Origin: a virus
DNA: 40,756 bases
IMG/VR virus record: IMGVR_UViG_3300046820_000157
Span: 1-40,756 of that record
Reading direction: 5' to 3' (one strand)
Part shown: in pieces, positions 44-16,987 of the stretch
How positions within the stretch are numbered: the stretch's first letter is position 1
Layout: each line of letters starts with the position of its first letter
Translations under genes and position numbers: made by a program
Notes under the pieces: generated by a model
Told to the model about the DNA's origin: nothing
Databases searched by the model: none
Seen by the model: the letters and a program-made list of their open reading frames with translations, nothing else

Positions 44-75
44 ATTGGCTCGACTCATTAACAGGGAGATTTAAC

Positions 76-2252: not shown

Positions 2253-2273
2253 TCAATCTAACAGGGAGGTGTC

Positions 2274-2479: not shown

Positions 2480-2677
2480 ATGGGCAGAGTTAAACAACTC
2501 TTCAACGAGTATTGGGAAGAAAAACTGACCAAGATGGAAATCCATCAACGGCAGTTAGAACTAGACTTGGCGCAGGACAACCTGAGGGCTGAGGAATGGG
2601 CGCAACACGAGAAGGACTTCAATGCATGGCTTGATGCTTACGAGAAGTCGTTTGGCAAACAGGGAGGTGAGTCATGA
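2480..2677 (+). CDS. hypothetical helical protein, 65 aa
   Basis: A short, highly charged protein (Glu, Gln, Lys, Trp) that should form one or two amphipathic helices and possibly a coiled coil. AAGGGAGA lies at a good distance before the ATG. Its stop overlaps the start of the next gene (ATGA). No family is recognised. Confidence 0.75.
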   Translation: MGRVKQLFNEYWEEKLTKMEIHQRQLELDLAQDNLRAEEWAQHEKDFNAWLDAYEKSFGKQGGES

Positions 2678-4090: not shown

Positions 4091-5014
4091 ATGAGTGTTA
4101 TTCAGTTAGACAGTCCGAACCATGTCATCAGTCTTGCGACATCGGCAGTCTTGGTCAATGCAGAAGTAAGCGTTTGGTCAGCGACTAAGCAAGATAGAGT
4201 TATCTCTAACGAGGTAACAACGGCTAAGAAAGCAGACCATTCAGCAGGGCGGTATGTAAAGAATCTCTTAGCTGACGACCCCACCCATAAGCAACTGCTC
4301 AATTATAGACAGACCGTTTATAACTGGCTTCGTAGGTCAACTTACGATTGGAATGGGTCATTGCGGTTGTTGCCTGTCGTGAATTTGCCAAAGTTCAAAA
4401 CAGAGTTTCAACACCATGAGAAGGCTTACTTTGCGTTGCGTGATGAGTTCTTGGCTAAGTATCCTACTATCGTAAGCAACATGGCTTTCAAGCAGGGAGA
4501 TATGTTTAATAGACAGGAGTATCCCGATGTGAACCAAATCAAGGACAAGTTCCGTATCAGGTTGTATGTGGCAGAAGTTCCACAGTCAGACTTTCGCTGT
4601 TCCATAGCGCAGGACTTGGCTGAAGACTTAAAAATTACATACCAAAAGCAAGTCAACGATGAGATTGTTCCACAGGTCATGGCTGATATTGCTAATCAGT
4701 TCATGGAGGTCATGGAGTCGATTAGTCATTGTTGCGGTGTTGACGAAATTAGCAGTTCAACGGATGGAGAAGTCAAGACCAAGAAACGGAAGATATATGA
4801 GACCACAGTCGATAAGGCTAAGGACTTGTGCGAGACCTTTAGGTCGTTCAATCTTACGAATGACGAAGAGTTAGCTAAAGCGTCTGTATCGTTGGAGAAA
4901 GTCTTAGGCGGTGTATCAGCAGAGGATATTCGAGAAAGCGATGCGGTGCGTGAAAGCGTGAAGAAGGGTGTCGATGACATTCTAATGAAGTTCGGTGCAT
5001 TTCAATCAATCTAA
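4091..5014 (+). CDS. DUF3150-like protein, 307 aa
   Basis: The N-terminal half resembles the DUF3150 family of phages and bacteria. It has a VSVWSA-type start of the conserved region, then an LRRSTYDWNG segment, LLPVVNLPKF, and a FLAKYP...DMFNRQEYP block near residues 125-155. Members of this family are typically encoded beside a MoxR/CobS-like ATPase and a VWA protein, exactly as here, so it is probably the third partner of that complex. The C-terminal half is helical and charged. The start follows GAGGTG, and the next gene begins 20 bases after the stop. The family assignment is from memory of its pattern. Biochemical function is unknown. Confidence 0.65.
   Translation: MSVIQLDSPNHVISLATSAVLVNAEVSVWSATKQDRVISNEVTTAKKADHSAGRYVKNLLADDPTHKQLLNYRQTVYNWLRRSTYDWNGSLRLLPVVNLPKFKTEFQHHEKAYFALRDEFLAKYPTIVSNMAFKQGDMFNRQEYPDVNQIKDKFRIRLYVAEVPQSDFRCSIAQDLAEDLKITYQKQVNDEIVPQVMADIANQFMEVMESISHCCGVDEISSSTDGEVKTKKRKIYETTVDKAKDLCETFRSFNLTNDEELAKASVSLEKVLGGVSAEDIRESDAVRESVKKGVDDILMKFGAFQSI
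4754..4772 (+). promoter_or_regulatory. AGTTCAAC-N7-GAA element, site 5 (inside a gene)
   Basis: AGTTCAAC-GGATGGA-GAAG lies within the DUF3150-like gene and encodes SSTDGE. The left half is perfect and the right half is reduced to GAA, as in the other in-gene copies. Confidence 0.5.
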
Positions 5015-5034
5015 ACCTAAACAGGGAGAATCAA

Positions 5035-6114
5035 ATGAAACTTAATCTAGTAGAAACTATGTCCATCAGCGAATTGCGTAAAGCGATTCCTATCATTGGT
5101 AAGAGTCTTACCCCAGTCATTATTAGTGAGCCAGGTGTCGGCAAGACTAGCCTCTTGAATATGTTAGAAGAGGATTTGGGGACAACCGAGTATGACTACA
5201 TATATGTGGACTGTCCTGTAAAAGATATGTCAGACATAGGTATGGTTATTCCTAACCATGAGACCAAGACCTTGGAATACTATGTCGCTAGTCTGTTCAA
5301 GCTAGGCAACGGCAAGAAGAAAGTCATCTGCCTTGACGAGTTGATGAAAGCCCCAAAGCTATTGCAGATTATCTTTACTCGCATGATGCTAGAAAGAATG
5401 GTAGGCGATGAGCCGTTACCCAAGGGGTCAATCATCTTTGCAACATCTAATAATGCAACAGATGGTGTCGGTGACTCTATGCTTGCCCATGCAGGGAATC
5501 GTGTGTGTAAGATTGAGATGGCTAAACCTAGCCCGAAAGAGTGGTTGTTGTGGGCATCGGAGAATGGAATCCATCGTTCGATTCGTTCTTGCGTAGCCAT
5601 GCACCCTAATTGGTTGGCATCTTATCGGAGTGGAGACCAAGACGAGAATACTGTAATCTTTAATCCAAAGAGAGCAGGGAATCAGTTCGTATCGCCTCGG
5701 TCATTAGCTAAGAGTTCAGTCATTGTTGAAAACAAAAACATCCTCGGTGAGAATGCCACGATGGTTGCTCTTGCAGGGACAATCGGTGTATCCGCCGCCA
5801 AACAGATGTCAGCGTTTTTATCGCTAGAGGAACAATTACCTGACTTCAAGGACATCTTGAAGAAGCCAGACGACATAGAAGTTCCCAAGGATATGTCAGC
5901 CCTTCTTATGATTATGTTTCAGGCGATAGACTTGTTAGAGACACAGGATGAGCTATCTAAGTTTATGAAGTTCGTGAAGAGAGTCGCTAGCGATGAGTGT
6001 CAGGCAATATTCTTTACGATGATTATGAGGGCTAAACGCACAGCCAAGATTGCTCGTAACAACGAGGAAATCAAGACATGGGCAGTAGCTAACCATGAGT
6101 TGTTTGGTGATTAA
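5035..6114 (+). CDS. MoxR/CobS-like AAA+ ATPase, 359 aa
   Basis: An ATP-driven remodelling enzyme of the MoxR/CobS branch of AAA+ proteins. Walker A is EPGVGKTS (about residues 33-40) and Walker B is VICLDE (about 97-102). A sensor-1-like ATSNN follows near residue 138, and the rest is a helical lid. In bacteria such ATPases work with a VWA-domain partner (RavA-ViaA, CobS-CobT). Here the VWA protein is the next gene and a DUF3150-like gene precedes it. The ATG follows AACAGGGAGAATCAA. The fold is clear. The client, possibly a host or virion metal-containing complex, is not known. Confidence 0.9.
   Translation: MKLNLVETMSISELRKAIPIIGKSLTPVIISEPGVGKTSLLNMLEEDLGTTEYDYIYVDCPVKDMSDIGMVIPNHETKTLEYYVASLFKLGNGKKKVICLDELMKAPKLLQIIFTRMMLERMVGDEPLPKGSIIFATSNNATDGVGDSMLAHAGNRVCKIEMAKPSPKEWLLWASENGIHRSIRSCVAMHPNWLASYRSGDQDENTVIFNPKRAGNQFVSPRSLAKSSVIVENKNILGENATMVALAGTIGVSAAKQMSAFLSLEEQLPDFKDILKKPDDIEVPKDMSALLMIMFQAIDLLETQDELSKFMKFVKRVASDECQAIFFTMIMRAKRTAKIARNNEEIKTWAVANHELFGD
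5713..5731 (+). promoter_or_regulatory. AGTTCAAC-N7-GAA element, site 6 (inside a gene)
   Basis: AGTTCAGT-CATTGTT-GAAA with TAAG in front lies inside the AAA+ gene and encodes KSSVIVE. It deviates at the left end (GT for AC) but keeps a good right half, GTTGAA. Confidence 0.45.
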
Positions 6115-6119
6115 TTAGT

Positions 6120-6138
6120 AGTTCAACACAGGGAGAAA
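6120..6138 (+). promoter_or_regulatory. AGTTCAAC-N7-GAA element, site 7, overlapping a binding site
   Basis: AGTTCAAC-ACAGGGA-GAAA lies between the AAA+ and VWA genes. The seven-base spacer contains the ribosome binding site ACAGGGAGA of the gene at 6143. The leader is almost identical to that at 8490-8508. Anything bound here, to DNA or RNA, could affect translation start. Confidence 0.5.
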
Positions 6139-6142
6139 CGGT

Positions 6143-7435
6143 ATGAGAACCGCAGAAGAAACACGCTTGAAGAAAGCGCATATTACTTTGATGCAACATC
6201 CAATGACTGCATTGTATTCGCAGATTATTGCATCAGGTAGAAATGAAGTAGTTGATGCCAAGGAACATGGTGGAATGTTTACCGCCTACACCGATGGCAT
6301 GAACAAGGTATATTGCAAGGAACACATCGCCGAGTATAAGTTGGAATCGGAGTTGCGAGGTGTGGTGTTGCATGAGAACCTTCATGTGGCATTGAAGCAG
6401 ATACCAAGACACCGAGACCTAAGCCATGACCATAAGATGCTTAATTATGCGATGGACTTCGTTGTCAATGATGTCATCAAGAATACTGTTGGCACAGTAG
6501 GACACAACAAAGAACCGTTGGTTACGCTTAACCCTAATTGGTTGTATCACCCAATGTTTCATAATTGGTCAGTCCGCAAGGTCTACGAGTATTTGAAGAA
6601 ACGCAAGGAGGAAATTGACAAGGCAGACCAAGACGGTAATCAGCCTCAGCCATGCCCTCAGCAAAACAACAGTTCAACGAATGATGAAAGCCAAAACGAG
6701 ACTGACATTGACGAGGCGCTACGCAATATGGACAAGGGTATGGATGACCACATATTCAAGGAAATCCAAGACATGACTGCCGAGGAGTTGAAGAAGTTGG
6801 AGGATGCGGTTGATAAAGCATTACGGCAGGGCGGTATGCTAGCAGGGCGGATGGGCGCATCTATCCCTCGTGTCATTGGAGATTTGCTTGAACCAAAGGT
6901 GGATTGGCGAGAGGTCTTTCGTGAGTTTGTTCAGTCAGCGATGCGTGGCAAGGATGAATACACATGGCGCAAGATGAACAAGTCTTATCTCGCTAATGAT
7001 ATGTATCTACCATCTATGCACTCTGAGACAATGGGTGAGTTGGTAGTTGCTATCGACACATCAGGCTCTATCAACAATGAGCAAATCTCTGAGTTTGCCT
7101 CAGAACTGGCATCCATCTGTGAAACTTGTAGCCCCGACAAGGTGCGAGTCTTGTGGTGGGATACCAAGGTGCATGGTGAGCAAATCTTTGAAGGTAACTA
7201 CAACGATATTGCCAAGATGCTCAAACCCCAAGGCGGTGGTGGCACTCATGTTGGTTGTGTCAGCGAATACATAATTAAGAGTTCAATCAATGCTGAAGCC
7301 TTGGTTATCTTTACCGATGGCTATGTGGAGAATAATCCTAAGTGGGAAGTAACGACTCCTACTATGTGGTTTGTTACACAGAACTCTAGCTTTGTTCCGC
7401 CCGCAGGTGGTCGTTGTGTTACGGTTGAGCAGTAA
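6143..7435 (+). CDS. metallopeptidase-like + VWA domain protein (DUF2201-type), 430 aa
   Basis: Partner protein of the AAA+ ATPase. The N-terminal part has the zinc-site motif HENLH (residues 77-81) of the putative metallopeptidase domain found in this family. A low-complexity, Gln/Asn/Asp-rich linker (about 165-195) follows. The C-terminal von Willebrand A domain has a complete metal-ion-dependent adhesion site: DTSGS at about 305, a Thr in GGGGTH near 370, and an Asp in FTDG near 393. This layout matches the CobT/ViaA-like partners of MoxR ATPases. The start follows CACAGGGAGAAACGGT. The domain calls are strong. Whether the peptidase site is active cannot be judged. Confidence 0.88.
   Translation: MRTAEETRLKKAHITLMQHPMTALYSQIIASGRNEVVDAKEHGGMFTAYTDGMNKVYCKEHIAEYKLESELRGVVLHENLHVALKQIPRHRDLSHDHKMLNYAMDFVVNDVIKNTVGTVGHNKEPLVTLNPNWLYHPMFHNWSVRKVYEYLKKRKEEIDKADQDGNQPQPCPQQNNSSTNDESQNETDIDEALRNMDKGMDDHIFKEIQDMTAEELKKLEDAVDKALRQGGMLAGRMGASIPRVIGDLLEPKVDWREVFREFVQSAMRGKDEYTWRKMNKSYLANDMYLPSMHSETMGELVVAIDTSGSINNEQISEFASELASICETCSPDKVRVLWWDTKVHGEQIFEGNYNDIAKMLKPQGGGGTHVGCVSEYIIKSSINAEALVIFTDGYVENNPKWEVTTPTMWFVTQNSSFVPPAGGRCVTVEQ
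6671..6689 (+). promoter_or_regulatory. AGTTCAAC-N7-GAA element, site 8 (inside a gene)
   Basis: AGTTCAAC-GAATGAT-GAAA encodes SSTNDE in the low-complexity linker of the VWA protein, a place where the amino-acid sequence is free to vary. Confidence 0.5.
7280..7298 (+). promoter_or_regulatory. AGTTCAAC-N7-GAA element, site 9 (inside a gene)
   Basis: AGTTCAAT-CAATGCT-GAAG preceded by TAATTAAG encodes IIKSSINAEA in the VWA domain. The flank TAATTAAG is the same as at site 11. Confidence 0.45.
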
Positions 7436-7461
7436 TTATATTAACTAACAGGGAGAAAACT

Positions 7462-8484
7462 ATGCCATATTTGACATACAAAGGGTTACAACATGTAACT
7501 CATACGCAAGACCCATTTAGGGGAACGATGAACTTCCCCATGTATAGCGACAGGAGACAACCGTATAGTCTCTTTCGGGTAGTCGAGACTGAGAACGATA
7601 TTGAATATCATGTCTGCTATGGCAGGGATTGGGAGAGTAAAGAAATCACTGAGCAAAAATATAATTTGCTCAAGGGTGTACGAGGTAAACGAGTCAGCAA
7701 GAAAGACAGGGACTATGAGCCTTATCCTTTCTATGAAACCATTGCCATACCAAGAGCCTTAGCTATCGTGCGGTCTGATAACACGATTGAGTTCGTTCGA
7801 GATAGTTATTGGCAAGGCGACAGGAAGAAAATGTCTGAGTGGATAAAATCAACTTGCTATATGTTTGACAGTTATCGGTATAGCGGTAATGGTCTGATGG
7901 TGTATGGGCAGAATAGTATGCCTATATTCAAAGGTCTGCGCTTAGACGCAGAAACTCTTAAGCCACACGAGTCTCAGAACATTCAAGTATTCCGCAAGGT
8001 CGTTGACCGTAAGAGAGCAAAGTCATTGATGGAGGGTTACAAGGACAAGCTAGATGTTGCCCATGCCATGCTGAAGTGTTTGGATATGGACACAATGATG
8101 GTATCAGCTAAAGATTTATTAGAAGAGCATGCCAGTAAACCCGATGAGAATAATTGGAAATACTTGGGGTCTGATGAAGCTATGCGAATCGGCGATAACT
8201 TACTCGAAAGCGGTTCAGAGTTTGAAGCATCATTGATGTATGCGATGGCAATAGGTGTGAACGGCTTTAGTGTATATGCGATTGAGAGATATGATAGTGG
8301 TGGGCATACAAGATACAACACTTGTGAGCCTAAGAATCTTGTGCCACGAATCAAGACTAGCTTGGCTAAGAAGGCGTATGAGACACACAAGCCATTCTAT
8401 GAGGTAGAAGTTCCTTTCATGAATACCAAGGGTAGTGAGTGGGGCCTACGAGTTGTATTAAACGGTGTGGATGTAGTTCGTTAA
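7462..8484 (+). CDS. hypothetical protein, 340 aa
   Basis: A soluble protein rich in Tyr, Arg and Asp with no motif I recognise. There is no signal peptide, membrane span, Walker motif or metal-binding cluster. The ATG follows CTAACAGGGAGAAAACT, a perfect 11-base match to the complement of the candidate small RNA loop. It follows the VWA gene by 26 bases and precedes a gene with a near-identical leader to that of the VWA gene. It is thus co-transcribed with the AAA+/VWA group and may act with it. That is inference from position only. Confidence 0.75.
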   Translation: MPYLTYKGLQHVTHTQDPFRGTMNFPMYSDRRQPYSLFRVVETENDIEYHVCYGRDWESKEITEQKYNLLKGVRGKRVSKKDRDYEPYPFYETIAIPRALAIVRSDNTIEFVRDSYWQGDRKKMSEWIKSTCYMFDSYRYSGNGLMVYGQNSMPIFKGLRLDAETLKPHESQNIQVFRKVVDRKRAKSLMEGYKDKLDVAHAMLKCLDMDTMMVSAKDLLEEHASKPDENNWKYLGSDEAMRIGDNLLESGSEFEASLMYAMAIGVNGFSVYAIERYDSGGHTRYNTCEPKNLVPRIKTSLAKKAYETHKPFYEVEVPFMNTKGSEWGLRVVLNGVDVVR

Positions 8485-8489
8485 TCAGT

Positions 8490-8508
8490 AGTTCAACACA
8501 GGGAGAAG
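8490..8508 (+). promoter_or_regulatory. AGTTCAAC-N7-GAA element, site 10, overlapping a binding site
   Basis: AGTTCAAC-ACAGGGA-GAAG, just after the stop of the 340-residue gene. The spacer carries the binding site for the ATG at 8513. It matches the leader at 6120-6138 almost base for base, including the upstream TTAAT and AGT. Confidence 0.5.
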
Positions 8509-8512
8509 TAGT

Positions 8513-9454
8513 ATGTTAAGTAATATCTTATTCCATGCAGTAGCAGATGATTCATTGAAAGAGAATGTAGCGCAGAGCAAAGTATTGCCTCTCATTCGTG
8601 AACTCAATCATATCTATGGCTTAAAAGTATATGCAGAGTCAGGCGACTTTCGTTTCGGTAGCGGTGGCGGTAATGCAGATAACTTTATGCTATGCGATGA
8701 AGTACAAGGCTTTCCTGTTGGTCGTGTGTTTGTGTATGAAGATAACTTTTGCTATCACACACCGTATAGTTCAAAGCAACGAGGGACTGATGACTTTGAT
8801 AGACACACCTTCCGTAGCAAAAAACTATCGTCATTGATAGCATCGCTAAAGAAAGTAGGCATTCTTACCAAAGGAGAACAGATAATTGAACAGCTTGATG
8901 AGGCTATGAATGGGGCAGTTCGCCCTATATATACATCATTCAATGTTGACAGAAAAAATAATATTACTGGAGACCATGCACATGAAATACTTTTAGCGTT
9001 ACAAAGCGGTAAGACACTTAGCGACTTACCACAGGGTAGTAGGGATTTATACCTAAAGTATATTGACGACTATACCAAAGTTGACATACAGTTAGAAACT
9101 AGAAAACAGGGAATACATGAAATGACGGATAACTGCTATGTCGTGGGTGCAGACAGAAAAGGTCACTACCTAGTTGCTGATGGAGGTTGTGAAGTTATGC
9201 AATCTAATGGGGTTGAATTTTATAAGTTAGATTACAAAAGTCCATTCAAGCGTGTTAGTTCTTTGAAGGAGTATCCCGATATATTGTCTTGCCTAACAAT
9301 GACTAAGGTGCATCTTGACGATAAGTTCAGACCTTGGTCAGATAAATCTTTAGCACCGTATGGAGACAAATACATCCCTGAGTTAGGTATTAGTTACGGT
9401 TATAGAAACAACAACACCGACTTTGATATGGAGTGGCTATGCATATCCAAATAA
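8513..9454 (+). CDS. hypothetical protein, 313 aa
   Basis: A soluble, mixed alpha/beta-looking protein with a glycine-rich stretch (FGSGGGNADN, about residues 47-57) and many Asp and Tyr residues. I do not recognise a family. The start is set by ACAGGGAGAAG five bases upstream. Its end overlaps the next gene by 16 bases. It belongs to the same transcription unit as the AAA+/VWA genes. Confidence 0.72.
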   Translation: MLSNILFHAVADDSLKENVAQSKVLPLIRELNHIYGLKVYAESGDFRFGSGGGNADNFMLCDEVQGFPVGRVFVYEDNFCYHTPYSSKQRGTDDFDRHTFRSKKLSSLIASLKKVGILTKGEQIIEQLDEAMNGAVRPIYTSFNVDRKNNITGDHAHEILLALQSGKTLSDLPQGSRDLYLKYIDDYTKVDIQLETRKQGIHEMTDNCYVVGADRKGHYLVADGGCEVMQSNGVEFYKLDYKSPFKRVSSLKEYPDILSCLTMTKVHLDDKFRPWSDKSLAPYGDKYIPELGISYGYRNNNTDFDMEWLCISK

Positions 9455-10804: not shown

Positions 10805-10822
10805 TTTAATAGGGAGTAGTAA

Positions 10823-11197
10823 ATGAAAACTAAATCATTAAAAACCAAAAAGGTTATGGCTTACTTACAAGCTAATCCATCAGCCAAACCAAGCGAAGTG
10901 GCTAAGAAATTTAAGATGACACCATCATATGTGTATCTTCTAAGAAACAAAACTAAAAAGCCAAGCAAGCTAATTAAGAGTTCAACCAAGGAAGAAGCCG
11001 TAGATAAAGTGAATCATCCTCCGCACTACAAAGTAGGTGGCATCGAGACGATTGATTTTATCGAGGCGAAGAAACTAAATTACAACCTTGGTAATGTTAT
11101 TAAATACATTACTCGTGCCGACCACAAGGGCAGTCGTAACGAGGACTTACAGAAAGCCCTATGGTATCTAAATCGTGAATTAGGGAGAAAAGCATGA
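10823..11197 (+). CDS. HTH + DUF3310 protein, 124 aa
   Basis: The C-terminal 65 residues are a DUF3310 domain: VNHPPHY, then IETIDFIEA, NLGNVIKYITRA and EDLQKALWYLNREL. DUF3310 is widespread in phages and of unproven activity, though it is often annotated as a nucleotide kinase-like domain. The N-terminal part (PSAKPSEVAKKFKMTPSYVY, about residues 19-38) looks like a helix-turn-helix, which is unusual as a fusion. The linker KSSTKEEA is encoded by an AGTTCAAC-N7-GAA element. AGGGAGTAG precedes the ATG. Confidence 0.85.
   Translation: MKTKSLKTKKVMAYLQANPSAKPSEVAKKFKMTPSYVYLLRNKTKKPSKLIKSSTKEEAVDKVNHPPHYKVGGIETIDFIEAKKLNYNLGNVIKYITRADHKGSRNEDLQKALWYLNRELGRKA
10979..10997 (+). promoter_or_regulatory. 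AGTTCAAC-N7-GAA element, site 11 (inside a gene)
   Basis: AGTTCAAC-CAAGGAA-GAAG preceded by TAATTAAG falls exactly in the linker between the HTH and DUF3310 domains and encodes LIKSSTKEEA. Confidence 0.5.
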
Positions 11198-14260: not shown

Positions 14261-14913
14261 TGTTTACTTGGTCATTCTCTTCTCTCAAGGATTACATAAA
14301 CTGCCCAAAGCAATACCAAGAGGTCAAGGTCCTCAAGAACTATCAGAAGGAGATGACCCAACAGATTCTCTACGGAAACCAAGTCCACAAGGCATTGGAA
14401 AACTATATCAAAGACGGAGAACCGTTAGCTGAAAACTATCAAAGATTTGCTCCGCTGATGGATAGCCTTAAAGAAATACCTGGGGAATTCCACCCTGAGC
14501 TTCGTATGGCACTTAATTATGACAAGAAAGCCTGTAAATGGAGTGCAGAGGACTGCTGGGTAAGGGGTATAGTTGACTTCCTAGTAGTGGATGGCGAGGA
14601 TGCGTATATTGTTGATTACAAGACGGGCAGTAATAAATACGCAGACCCCAAGCAATTAAAGCTCATGGCGTTGATGGTCTTTGAACACTTTCCTGAAGTG
14701 CGTAACGTCAAGGCTGGATTGATGTTTGTCATGAATAATAGTTTTATTACAGAGGAGTATGTACGGGATACAAAGAATGAACTTTGGGATGCTTTTACCC
14801 CAGACCTTGCTCGTTTGACCCATTCGTACGAAAATGATGTATGGCAAGCAAACCCTACGGGGCTGTGTGGTTGGTGTCCAGTTAGGTCTTGCGAACATCA
14901 CAAGGAGAGATAA
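14260..14913 (+). CDS. Cas4/RecB-like PD-(D/E)xK exonuclease, 217 aa
   Basis: A nuclease of the RecB/Cas4 type. It starts with the conserved SFSSLKDYINCPKQY segment including the first cysteine (residue about 17). A histidine lies in GNQVHKALE, then RGIVDFLV (Asp), then YIVDYKTG (Asp and Lys) near residues 110-130. A cysteine cluster closes the protein: GLCGWCPVRSCEHH. Four cysteines in these positions suggest an iron-sulphur cluster as in Cas4. I choose the ATG at 14260, seven bases after GGGAG; the ATG at 14254 is too close. No other CRISPR parts are present, so this is a phage replication or recombination enzyme. Confidence 0.88.
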   Translation: MFTWSFSSLKDYINCPKQYQEVKVLKNYQKEMTQQILYGNQVHKALENYIKDGEPLAENYQRFAPLMDSLKEIPGEFHPELRMALNYDKKACKWSAEDCWVRGIVDFLVVDGEDAYIVDYKTGSNKYADPKQLKLMALMVFEHFPEVRNVKAGLMFVMNNSFITEEYVRDTKNELWDAFTPDLARLTHSYENDVWQANPTGLCGWCPVRSCEHHKER

Positions 14914-15224
14914 TGCCCTACGTTACTAAACCAAGACCTTATAAGAAGGAATACCAGCAACAAAAAGCTCGTGGAGAGCATGGCAACCGCATGGAACGCC
15001 AGCGAGCTAGACGGGGTATAGACAAGAAGATGCCTGATAACAATGGCAACGGCAAAGCAGACGCACGGGAAGGCAAAGATGTAGCCCACCGCAAGGCGCT
15101 GGACAAGGGCGGCTCTAATAAACATGGGGTTTACATCACTACGGCAGCCAAAAATCGCTCTTTTAAGCGGGACTCTAAGGGTAATTTGGTATCCGAAACC
15201 AGCAAAAAAGAGCGCAAAAAGTAA
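14913..15224 (+). CDS. HNH-endonuclease-like basic protein, 103 aa
   Basis: A very basic protein whose core, GKDVAHRKALDKGGSNKHGV, followed by AAKNRSFKR and the ending SETSKKERKK, matches small phage proteins often annotated as HNH endonuclease-like. Those share the xDVxHxxALxxGGSN pattern and an ending SxTSKxERxK. A full HNH set (second His, metal ligands) cannot be confirmed by eye. AAGGAGAGATA precedes the ATG at 14913, which overlaps the previous stop. It could be a DNA-binding or nicking protein for genome maturation. Confidence 0.65.
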   Translation: MPYVTKPRPYKKEYQQQKARGEHGNRMERQRARRGIDKKMPDNNGNGKADAREGKDVAHRKALDKGGSNKHGVYITTAAKNRSFKRDSKGNLVSETSKKERKK

Positions 15225-15310
15225 AGTTTTAGTGTAAAGTATTTGTTTACCGTAAGACATGAGTGGGTAACAAACAAGCTTGCCTTTGGTGATTCTCAGG
15301 CTTAAACCAT

Positions 15311-15390
15311 GTCAGCTAGCCGTACCGCTTTTTACCTCCCTGTTAGAGTGGTAATGGGCTAGACGACTAACCCCCGTAAGGGGTTTTAGT
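15311..15390 (+). ncRNA. candidate small RNA or leader RNA with anti-Shine-Dalgarno loop
   Basis: Between two genes a two-part hairpin forms. The lower stem is GTC-GCTAGCC (from 15311) with GGCTAG-C-GAC (to 15367), apart from single-base bulges. The upper stem is TACCGCT (15323-15329) with AGTGGTA (15347-15353), including one G-T wobble. The 17-base loop contains ACCTCCCTGTTAG. A terminator hairpin follows directly. The loop and its closing bases are complementary over 14 bases to the leader at 2257-2270, and over 8-11 bases to several other phage leaders of the form (TA)ACAGGGAG. A loose -10 (TTAAAC, 15302-15307) stands at a fitting distance. It may instead be a cis leader of the helicase gene at 15410. 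Confidence 0.4.
15366..15390 (+). terminator. terminator-like hairpin
   Basis: ACTAACCCC, CGTAA, GGGGTTTTAGT: a stem of four G-C pairs extended by A-T pairs, with the T run partly inside the stem. It ends 19 bases before the helicase ATG. It could end the candidate small RNA, or act as an attenuator for the downstream gene. Confidence 0.55.
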
Positions 15391-15409
15391 TAACTTAGTT
15401 AAGGAAAAT

Positions 15410-16987
15410 ATGGAAATAGTAGATAACACAGCAGTTCGCTTTACGCTCCCAACAGACCTTGTGCCAAGCGTAATAAACAACATAGAAAAAAGCGAACTTG
15501 TAGAGACCAAGGGAAATCTCTCAGAAGTTTTAGTTTATTGGGGTATAGAAGAACTAACCCTACTTAATAGGCTAATCAAGTTTAATAAACCCCTCCCCTC
15601 CCCCATAAGTGCTAACTACAATTGGCCTGGACTGTATAAGCCTTTCGATCACCAAAGAGTTACTTCAGCGTTCCTATCCATTAACATGCGGGCGTTCTGC
15701 TTTAACGAAGCAGGGACAGGTAAAACATCATCTGTTATTTGGGCTGCTGACTACTTAATGAATCAAAAGCACATCAAAAAAGTTTTAGTAATATGCCCTC
15801 TATCAATTATGTATTCAGCATGGCAAGCAGACATTTTCAAAACTGCAATGCATAGACGAGTTGCTGTAGCGTATGGTAGTCCAGACAAGCGTAAAAAGAT
15901 TCTTAACGGAGACTACGAGTTCATCGTTATAAATTACGATGGAGTAAACATTGTATTCAATGAGTTAGAAAAAATAGGGTTTGACCTGATAGTAATAGAT
16001 GAAGCAAACGCTTATAAAAATGTTACGACTAAAAGATGGAAAGCATTAGCTAAATTGATGAAACCAACCACGAGGTTGTGGATGTTAACAGGGACACCCG
16101 CCTCACAATCACCAGTAGATGCATTTGGTATAGCCAAACTTGTATCACCACAAAACGTTCCACGCACATTGACTGTGTGGAAAGATAAAGTTATGACTCA
16201 ACTGTCACGCTTTAGGTGGATTCCAAAACATGATGCAAAGCAAAAAGTATTTGATGCACTGCAACCAGCAATTCGCTTCACAAAAAACGAGTGTTTAGAC
16301 TTGCCTGATTTAATGTATCAGACACGGGAAGTACCGCTATCACCACAAGCACTACGCTACTACAATGATTTAAAAAAGAATATGCTTATCCAAGCAGCGG
16401 GTGAACAAATCACCACAGTAAATGCTGCAACAAATTTAAATAAACTATTGCAATTATCAGGAGGGGCAGTATATACTGATGAAAGGGAGGTAGTTGAGTT
16501 CGACATAGCACCACGCAAGAACGCACTGCTAGAAGTTATCGAAGAAACAGAACACAAGCTAATTATTTTTGTACCGTATAGACACACTATACAGTTAGTT
16601 TGTAAGTTCTTAACAGAGGAGGGAATCACAAACGAAGTTATCAATGGAGATGTGCCTGCAAAAGAGCGCAGTCTAATCATTAACAGATTTCAAGAATCAG
16701 ACAACCCAAGAATACTTGTAATACAACCGCAAGCTGCGAGTCATGGAGTAACGCTTACAGCTGCAAATACTGTAGTGTTTTGGTCTCCTGTTACTAGTGT
16801 TGAAACATACTTACAATGTATCGCTCGCATTGATAGGGTAGGTCAAAAGAACAAGATGACAGTAGTGCATTTACAAGGTTCTCCAGTTGAAAGAAGGATG
16901 TACGAAGTGTTGCAAAATAAAGTAGATATGCATGAAAAATTAGTTGATTTATATAAGTCAGAACTCGGTATAGGAGAAAACAAATGA
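15410..16987 (+). CDS. SNF2/DEAD-like superfamily 2 helicase, 525 aa
   Basis: A DNA-dependent ATPase of the SNF2-type branch of superfamily 2. Motif I is NEAGTGKTSS (about residues 102-111), motif II is VIDEAN (about 193-198) in place of DEAH, and motif III is LTGTPA (about 225-230). The C-terminal half has FVPYRHT (IV), VIQPQAASHGVTLTAA (V) and YLQCIARIDRVGQ (VI). Phage members of this group act in replication or recombination-dependent fork handling. The ATG follows TTAAGGAAAAT. It is preceded by the hairpin/terminator element at 15311-15390, which may control it, and ends in an ATGA overlap with the next gene. Confidence 0.93.
   Translation: MEIVDNTAVRFTLPTDLVPSVINNIEKSELVETKGNLSEVLVYWGIEELTLLNRLIKFNKPLPSPISANYNWPGLYKPFDHQRVTSAFLSINMRAFCFNEAGTGKTSSVIWAADYLMNQKHIKKVLVICPLSIMYSAWQADIFKTAMHRRVAVAYGSPDKRKKILNGDYEFIVINYDGVNIVFNELEKIGFDLIVIDEANAYKNVTTKRWKALAKLMKPTTRLWMLTGTPASQSPVDAFGIAKLVSPQNVPRTLTVWKDKVMTQLSRFRWIPKHDAKQKVFDALQPAIRFTKNECLDLPDLMYQTREVPLSPQALRYYNDLKKNMLIQAAGEQITTVNAATNLNKLLQLSGGAVYTDEREVVEFDIAPRKNALLEVIEETEHKLIIFVPYRHTIQLVCKFLTEEGITNEVINGDVPAKERSLIINRFQESDNPRILVIQPQAASHGVTLTAANTVVFWSPVTSVETYLQCIARIDRVGQKNKMTVVHLQGSPVERRMYEVLQNKVDMHEKLVDLYKSELGIGENK

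Follow-up and report, generated by a model that had tools for sequence, protein, structure and literature searches.

Between a small HNH-like gene and a SNF2-type DNA helicase gene, the IMG/VR virus record IMGVR_UViG_3300046820_000157, whose full 40,756 nucleotides form the window analyzed here, carries a stretch of DNA for which a sequence-only reading had proposed a hairpin RNA with a loop complementary to the phage's own ribosome-binding leaders. This locus raises the questions (i) whether a structured RNA is conserved at this position; (ii) whether its loop fits the early-gene leaders beyond what chance and phylogeny provide; and (iii) whether the RNA would act on these genes or in cis on the helicase gene. 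The helicase gene lies at 15410..16987 (PHROG 62, E 2.8e-106; plus strand, as are the RNA parts and leaders described below) and the upstream gene at 14913..15224 (plus strand); the latter has no Pfam match, is kept beside the element according to tblastn, and is presumably HNH/endonuclease-VII-like, a name assigned from a motif. GenBank holds no close DNA relative over the element region, and blastn of the element against GenBank phages returned no match.

Structure and distribution of the element

A covariance model of the conserved structured RNA has one good match in the window, at about 15243..15389 (73 bits, E 8e-17; the window itself is in the training set), with the order P1-pseudoknot-P2-P3-P4. 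The P1 hairpin (15243..15276) has a 14-nt loop, GUAAGACAUGAGUG (15252-15265), in which GACAUG (15256..15261) pairs with CAUGUC (15308..15313) to form the pseudoknot. A variable P2 hairpin (15276..15303) precedes P3 (15316..15362), in which an outer stem, CUAGCC/GGCUAG (15316-15321/15357-15362), and an inner stem, UACCGCU/AGUGGUA (15323-15329/15347-15353), carry the apical loop TTTTACCTCCCTGTTAG (15330..15346). Behind P3 stands P4 (15371..15384; CCCC(C)GUAAGGGG), in the window a CCCC-GTAA-GGGG-TTTT hairpin. The two-part stem described in the sequence-only reading is confirmed; the hairpin is real but is not the whole RNA unit, which begins about 70 nt farther upstream with P1, the pseudoknot and P2, all of which had been missed.

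Covariation of the stems in related phages, suggested at the time as a check, proved very strong. In 41 aligned sequences, pairing was 99.2% for the pseudoknot and 99.5% for P3, and in an alignment of 98 distinct sequences, built on a model lacking the pseudoknot, it was 98.8% for the pseudoknot and 99.4% for the outer stem of P3; the covariation score was matched by none of 500 shuffles in either set. Across relatives, the six base pairs of the pseudoknot join G-NNNN-G of the P1 loop to a downstream CNNNNC (GACAUG/CAUGUC, GGUGUG/CGCACC, GGUACG/CGUAUC, GGCACG/CGUGUC), and among the 98 sequences two of its columns show compensatory UA/CG and GC/AU changes. Two-sided changes were also found in four of five columns of the outer P3 stem (98 sequences) and in nine of nine pairs of P1, for which 75% of cells are paired in the 98 sequences. 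The stem of P4 likewise varies by compensatory change, from CCCCC-GTAA-GGGG to CCTCG-GAAAGA-CGAGG or GCCGG-GAAAGA-CCGGC, and a P2-like hairpin is possible in 101 of 124 distinct forms. The relatives share the invariant frame GUNRG-NNNNN-AGUG in the P1 loop, and carry AAC-CNNNNC-AGU between P2 and P3. Folding of 15290-15400 alone, a further suggested check, gave a z-score of only -2.0; the stems are nevertheless backed by covariation, and it is on this comparative evidence, rather than on folding energy, that the structure rests.

Some loci depart from this plan at the 3' side. In L007, L035, L048, L184 and their relatives, a longer structured module, GGACACGCAGACGUUAAAG...GUGGG(G/A)...GGUGGAA..CCC, common to otherwise different loci, takes the place of P4 after P3. 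A subset of loci L023-L070 has an extra hairpin between P4 and the helicase ribosome-binding site (e.g., AAACACAGACCGUGUUUGG), the stem of which is strongly variable and the loop near-constant.

IMG/VR contigs contain about 124 distinct forms of the element, and a motif scan, which sets a lower bound, matched more than 119 viral contigs with one motif. Nearly all copies sit between the small HNH-like gene and the SNF2 helicase gene; roughly half of 80 relatives gathered via the helicase gene have the same architecture in the stretch before it. In four isolates with helicase relatives, no comparable conserved element is annotated or to be expected, the helicase gene following closely on its upstream gene. 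Each record has one copy, except for one contig with two equal-scoring copies about 64 kb apart, possibly its redundant ends. Copies without the helicase gene lie before terminase genes (L096, L105, L114, L146, L158, L168) or in other contexts (L159 and L199). In the terminase group, the element is followed by a conserved noncoding stretch of about 500 nt (GCCAGCGCACAGUAAUCGGACAGGGCUGC...CUCCCUGCACUGGC, then ACRCGCAUGGGG), with a tRNA-Met gene nearby in most; this stretch looks like another structured RNA. Of 84,980 prokaryote species genomes, the motif was found in a single contig, from a bacterial MAG. This good copy, at L209:2772-2917 (minus strand, 61.8 bits), has epimerase-like and HxlR-like genes as neighbors, no phage genes having been seen, and it is possible that this copy reflects misbinning or a prophage remnant.

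Complementarity of the P3 loop to early-gene leaders

Within the window, the 13-base loop complement reported at the leader of the 2274 gene was verified: exact CTAACAGGGAGGT occurs only at 2258-2270, in that leader, and, reversed, in the P3 loop. By simple arithmetic, about 0.001 exact 13-mers would be expected by chance in such a window; allowing up to three mismatches gives 17 sites where 9.7 are expected, a count reached by three of 100 shuffles. The partial matches reported for the leaders of genes 76, 2674, 5035, 6143, 7462 and 8513 are also present, each with 8-11 bases of the loop complement, and the 10823 leader has the related TTTAATAGGGAG. The predicted duplexes range from -26.5 kcal/mol at the 2274 leader (2258..2270) and -23.3 at the 2674 leader (2658..2668) through -20.3 at 7462 (7445..7455), -18.2 at 10823 (DUF3310; 10807..10816), -17.6 at 76 (59..68) and -16.9 at 5035 (AAA ATPase; 5020..5028) to -15.0 at both 6143 (DUF2201 metallopeptidase/VWA; 6128..6135) and 8513 (8498..8505). 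The 2674 leader recurs in the close relatives G002 and G003, the loops of which match the 2674-type leader at 13 of 13 positions; in the closest relatives of the window, the loop ends in GTTTG, not GTTAG, and its match to CAAACAGGGAGGT (the 2674 leader) is 13 of 13. Resemblance to an anti-Shine-Dalgarno sequence is a property of every C-rich loop, so a single genome cannot settle whether such matches go beyond chance.

Positions 4091-9454 of the window form a conserved early operon in which the AAA ATPase (5035) and the DUF2201 metallopeptidase/VWA protein (6143) resemble a MoxR/VWA pair. A GTTCAAC...TTGAA inverted-repeat-like repeat, possibly an operator or promoter element, stands before genes 1656, 2274 and 4091. 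As no phage RNA polymerase was found among the window proteins scanned, the reading of CTAACAGGGAG as a T7-type phage promoter was dropped.

The P3 loop differs between clades, and the early-gene leaders differ likewise. We compared the pairing of each P3 loop with its own leaders to that of loops from other phages, correcting for how sticky each loop and each genome is on average. The gene starts used here are mechanical calls, and many of the contigs are fragments. For all leaders of 33 genomes without close relatives, own loops fitted better (z -4.5; -3.5 without the window), while the reversed loop, P2 and P4 gave values near 0. The signal came from same-strand upstream leaders (28 genomes; z -6.6; -5.5 without the window), and opposite-strand leaders gave none (z +0.5). 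Shuffled loops gave z values of 0.2, 0.9 and -1.5. Loop limits in these tests were partly trimmed by hand, after some matches were visible; with the untrimmed P3 interior, an objective limit, z was -4.6. Relative to the start codon, the signal falls in the -24 and -16 windows (z -6.1 and -7.2; span -24 to +3), other distances being near zero except for weak values at -60 (z -2.9) and at -8 (z -2.2), the latter overlapping the same site.

The strongest partners, by orthologue, were 6143 (cluster 6, z -5.0), 4091 (-4.4), 5035 (cluster 9, -4.0) and 7462 (cluster 31, -4.0), followed by 10823 (cluster 20, -3.0), 785 (-2.9) and 8513 (cluster 25, -2.8); leaders within one genome resemble each other, so these clusters are not mutually independent. 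DNA polymerase (-0.2), exonuclease, helicase (+0.8) and primase stayed within a z of +/-1, and the remaining genes scatter around zero (-2.5 to +2.4). Thinning the set to one genome per clade, at helicase identities of 90, 80, 75, 70 and 65% (from 32 clades down to 9), left a median z of -6.8, -5.5, -5.2, -4.0 and -3.6, respectively, the last, for nine clade representatives, corresponding to p 0.0007; the opposite-strand control remained at about 0. Judged by these reduced sets, phylogeny does not account for the loop-leader fit.

Individual clades illustrate the matched changes. The loop/leader motif of the window, CTCCCTGT/ACAGGGAG, recurs in seven leaders, and is replaced by CAGCCTCC/GGAGGCTG in G035, GCACTCC/GGAGTGC in G021, CTTCTCCTTT/AAAGGAGAAG in G049, TCCTTTCA/TGAAAGGA (in six leaders) in G019 and, through G-U pairs, GCCCTTTCGG/CCGAGAGGGC in G041. 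In G016, G020, G023, G029 and G032, own matches were not in excess of foreign ones. The variability of the loop was considered as evidence against leader pairing, and this argument was rejected because the leaders vary along with the loop. The earlier interpretation as a whole is partly borne out; its central idea, that one phage RNA pairs with a set of early-gene leaders, is supported by this demanding comparison, in which co-variation is confined to the Shine-Dalgarno position of the same-strand upstream operon. Sequence-specific complementarity to several mRNAs beyond chance, as looked for in an sRNA, was found.

These comparisons bear on two other readings of the locus. In nearly every locus the element is immediately followed by the helicase gene, and it has the pseudoknotted 5' leader anatomy typical of riboswitches, so that its loop or fold might control helicase translation only. 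Cis action on this gene had been offered as an alternative from the outset and found no support: own loops are no better than swapped ones on their own helicase leaders (p 0.88; the helicase cluster is the one at z +0.8), and the element exists without the helicase gene in the terminase group, L159, L199 and the bacterial MAG contig. In the P3 loop, the part examined for this purpose, we found no expression platform pairing with the downstream helicase Shine-Dalgarno sequence. We consider a purely cis-acting helicase leader unlikely; a dual role, in cis on the helicase and in trans on early genes, is possible. The loops are also pyrimidine-rich and often CUCCUUUC-like, as would be expected if they copied the anti-Shine-Dalgarno tail of 16S rRNA and bound ribosome-binding sites generally or titrated a factor. 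A general mimic would favor neither its own genome nor only early upstream genes, however, and where the window loop CCUCCCUGUU differs from the 16S tail, its leaders differ in just the same way; mimicry of this kind seems highly improbable to us.

Transcription and relation to known RNAs

A near-consensus sigma-70 site (at least 11 of 12 positions) immediately precedes P1 in 18% of the 118 loci and occurs in 0.3% of random windows, an enrichment that supports separate transcription of the putative RNA; the window has no such site before P1. The adjacent hairpin had been read as terminator-like, which did not hold up: a standard terminator scan of the window did not find P4, and a run of at least four T residues follows it in five of 65 distinct relatives scored. 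On this comparative basis, P4 is a structural hairpin and not a conserved terminator. Given the missing sigma-70 site in the window and the rarity of T-runs, the RNA may arise by processing of the helicase mRNA or, through read-through, form its 5' portion. In the window (15217-15246) and in L002, GTAAAGTKTTAGTGTAAAGTAT is conserved before P1, though P1 itself differs; it may be a non-sigma-70 promoter or an activator site.

Rfam 15 at gathering score gave no match in the window or in 13 relatives; by E-value, there were none in L014 and L027 and three unrelated weak matches in the window. With no Rfam or ARAGORN match, a known riboswitch, ribozyme, C4 or tRNA-like RNA was rejected. According to a 2025 review of phage small RNAs (PMC12197685), the C4 RNA of phages P1, P7 and P4 is structured, and its loops block the ribosome-binding region of a phage mRNA. 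The element resembles this antisense RNA (RF01695) in that its loop is also complementary to ribosome-binding sites of its own phage's mRNAs. However, C4 acts on one antirepressor mRNA in temperate-phage immunity, whereas the element fits six or more early genes and lies in a replication module; its core holds a pseudoknot, the covariance model of the C4 family does not match it, and its neighbors are the HNH-like and helicase genes, not a temperate-phage antirepressor gene downstream. Bacterial small RNAs with anti-Shine-Dalgarno loops, such as the rhizobial cuckoo RNA/NfeR1 group, reportedly target the Shine-Dalgarno sequences of several mRNAs with C-rich exposed loops. The element shares the C-rich, exposed anti-Shine-Dalgarno loop and the plurality of targets, but those RNAs are bacterial, chromosomal and constant in their motif, while the loop described here changes by clade with its targets.

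Pseudoknotted leaders of the riboswitch type, such as preQ1, likewise pair a hairpin loop to a downstream strand before a gene; the element differs from them in lacking an Rfam match and specific pairing with the helicase leader, and in occurring away from the helicase. AgvB, AsxR and STnc6030 are phage-derived base-pairing regulators that target host RNAs, host sRNAs or a superinfecting phage (PMC12197685). None of the three is described there as controlling the early operon of the phage that carries it, which is what the element fits, and the passages of the review consulted (PMC12197685) name no RNA addressing its own phage's early operon. We found none in the open literature searched, where absence is no proof of novelty. 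We file the element as a new RNA family and a new variant of phage antisense RNA, not a C4 RNA.

Proposed role in early gene control

Comparison demonstrates the structure (P1, pseudoknot, P3 and P4) and a sense-strand loop-leader co-evolution at the ribosome-binding position. On these grounds we think it likely that the element is a conserved pseudoknotted phage RNA, one loop of which is complementary to the Shine-Dalgarno leaders of its own early operon, and that it is a candidate multi-gene repressor. The P3 loop would pair with early mRNAs as a separate molecule acting in trans, or would reach distant leaders on a single early transcript; the duplex would block ribosome binding at initiation; and once the RNA accumulates, several early genes would go down together. 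In this scheme, the invariant P1/pseudoknot core would act as a scaffold or bind a protein, and the P3 loop, which changes fast, would be the address label.

The comparative data reveal pairing, not its outcome, so that the early mRNAs might instead be activated, stabilized or cleaved, or their leaders might sponge the RNA. The paired window covers the Shine-Dalgarno sequence itself, however, and pairing there usually blocks initiation, as established for antisense sRNAs; we hold such other effects to be distinctly unlikely. The RNA probably brings about a joint shut-off of several early genes. We are evenly divided on the broader proposal that a previously undescribed family of virulent-phage RNAs would serve as a single translational master switch, in which a variable loop on an invariant pseudoknotted scaffold, co-evolving with the leaders of the entire early operon, turns the operon off at the early-to-middle transition.

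Proteins and promoters are the usual explanation for how phages silence their early genes. The loop-leader pairs that occur naturally in different clades amount to a set of compensatory mutants for studying RNA targeting, and a partner molecule may bind to the invariant scaffold. If the proposed role is true, a large group of uncultured phages would possess a simple and evolvable switch, an RNA that uses one loop to address its own phage's early operon.
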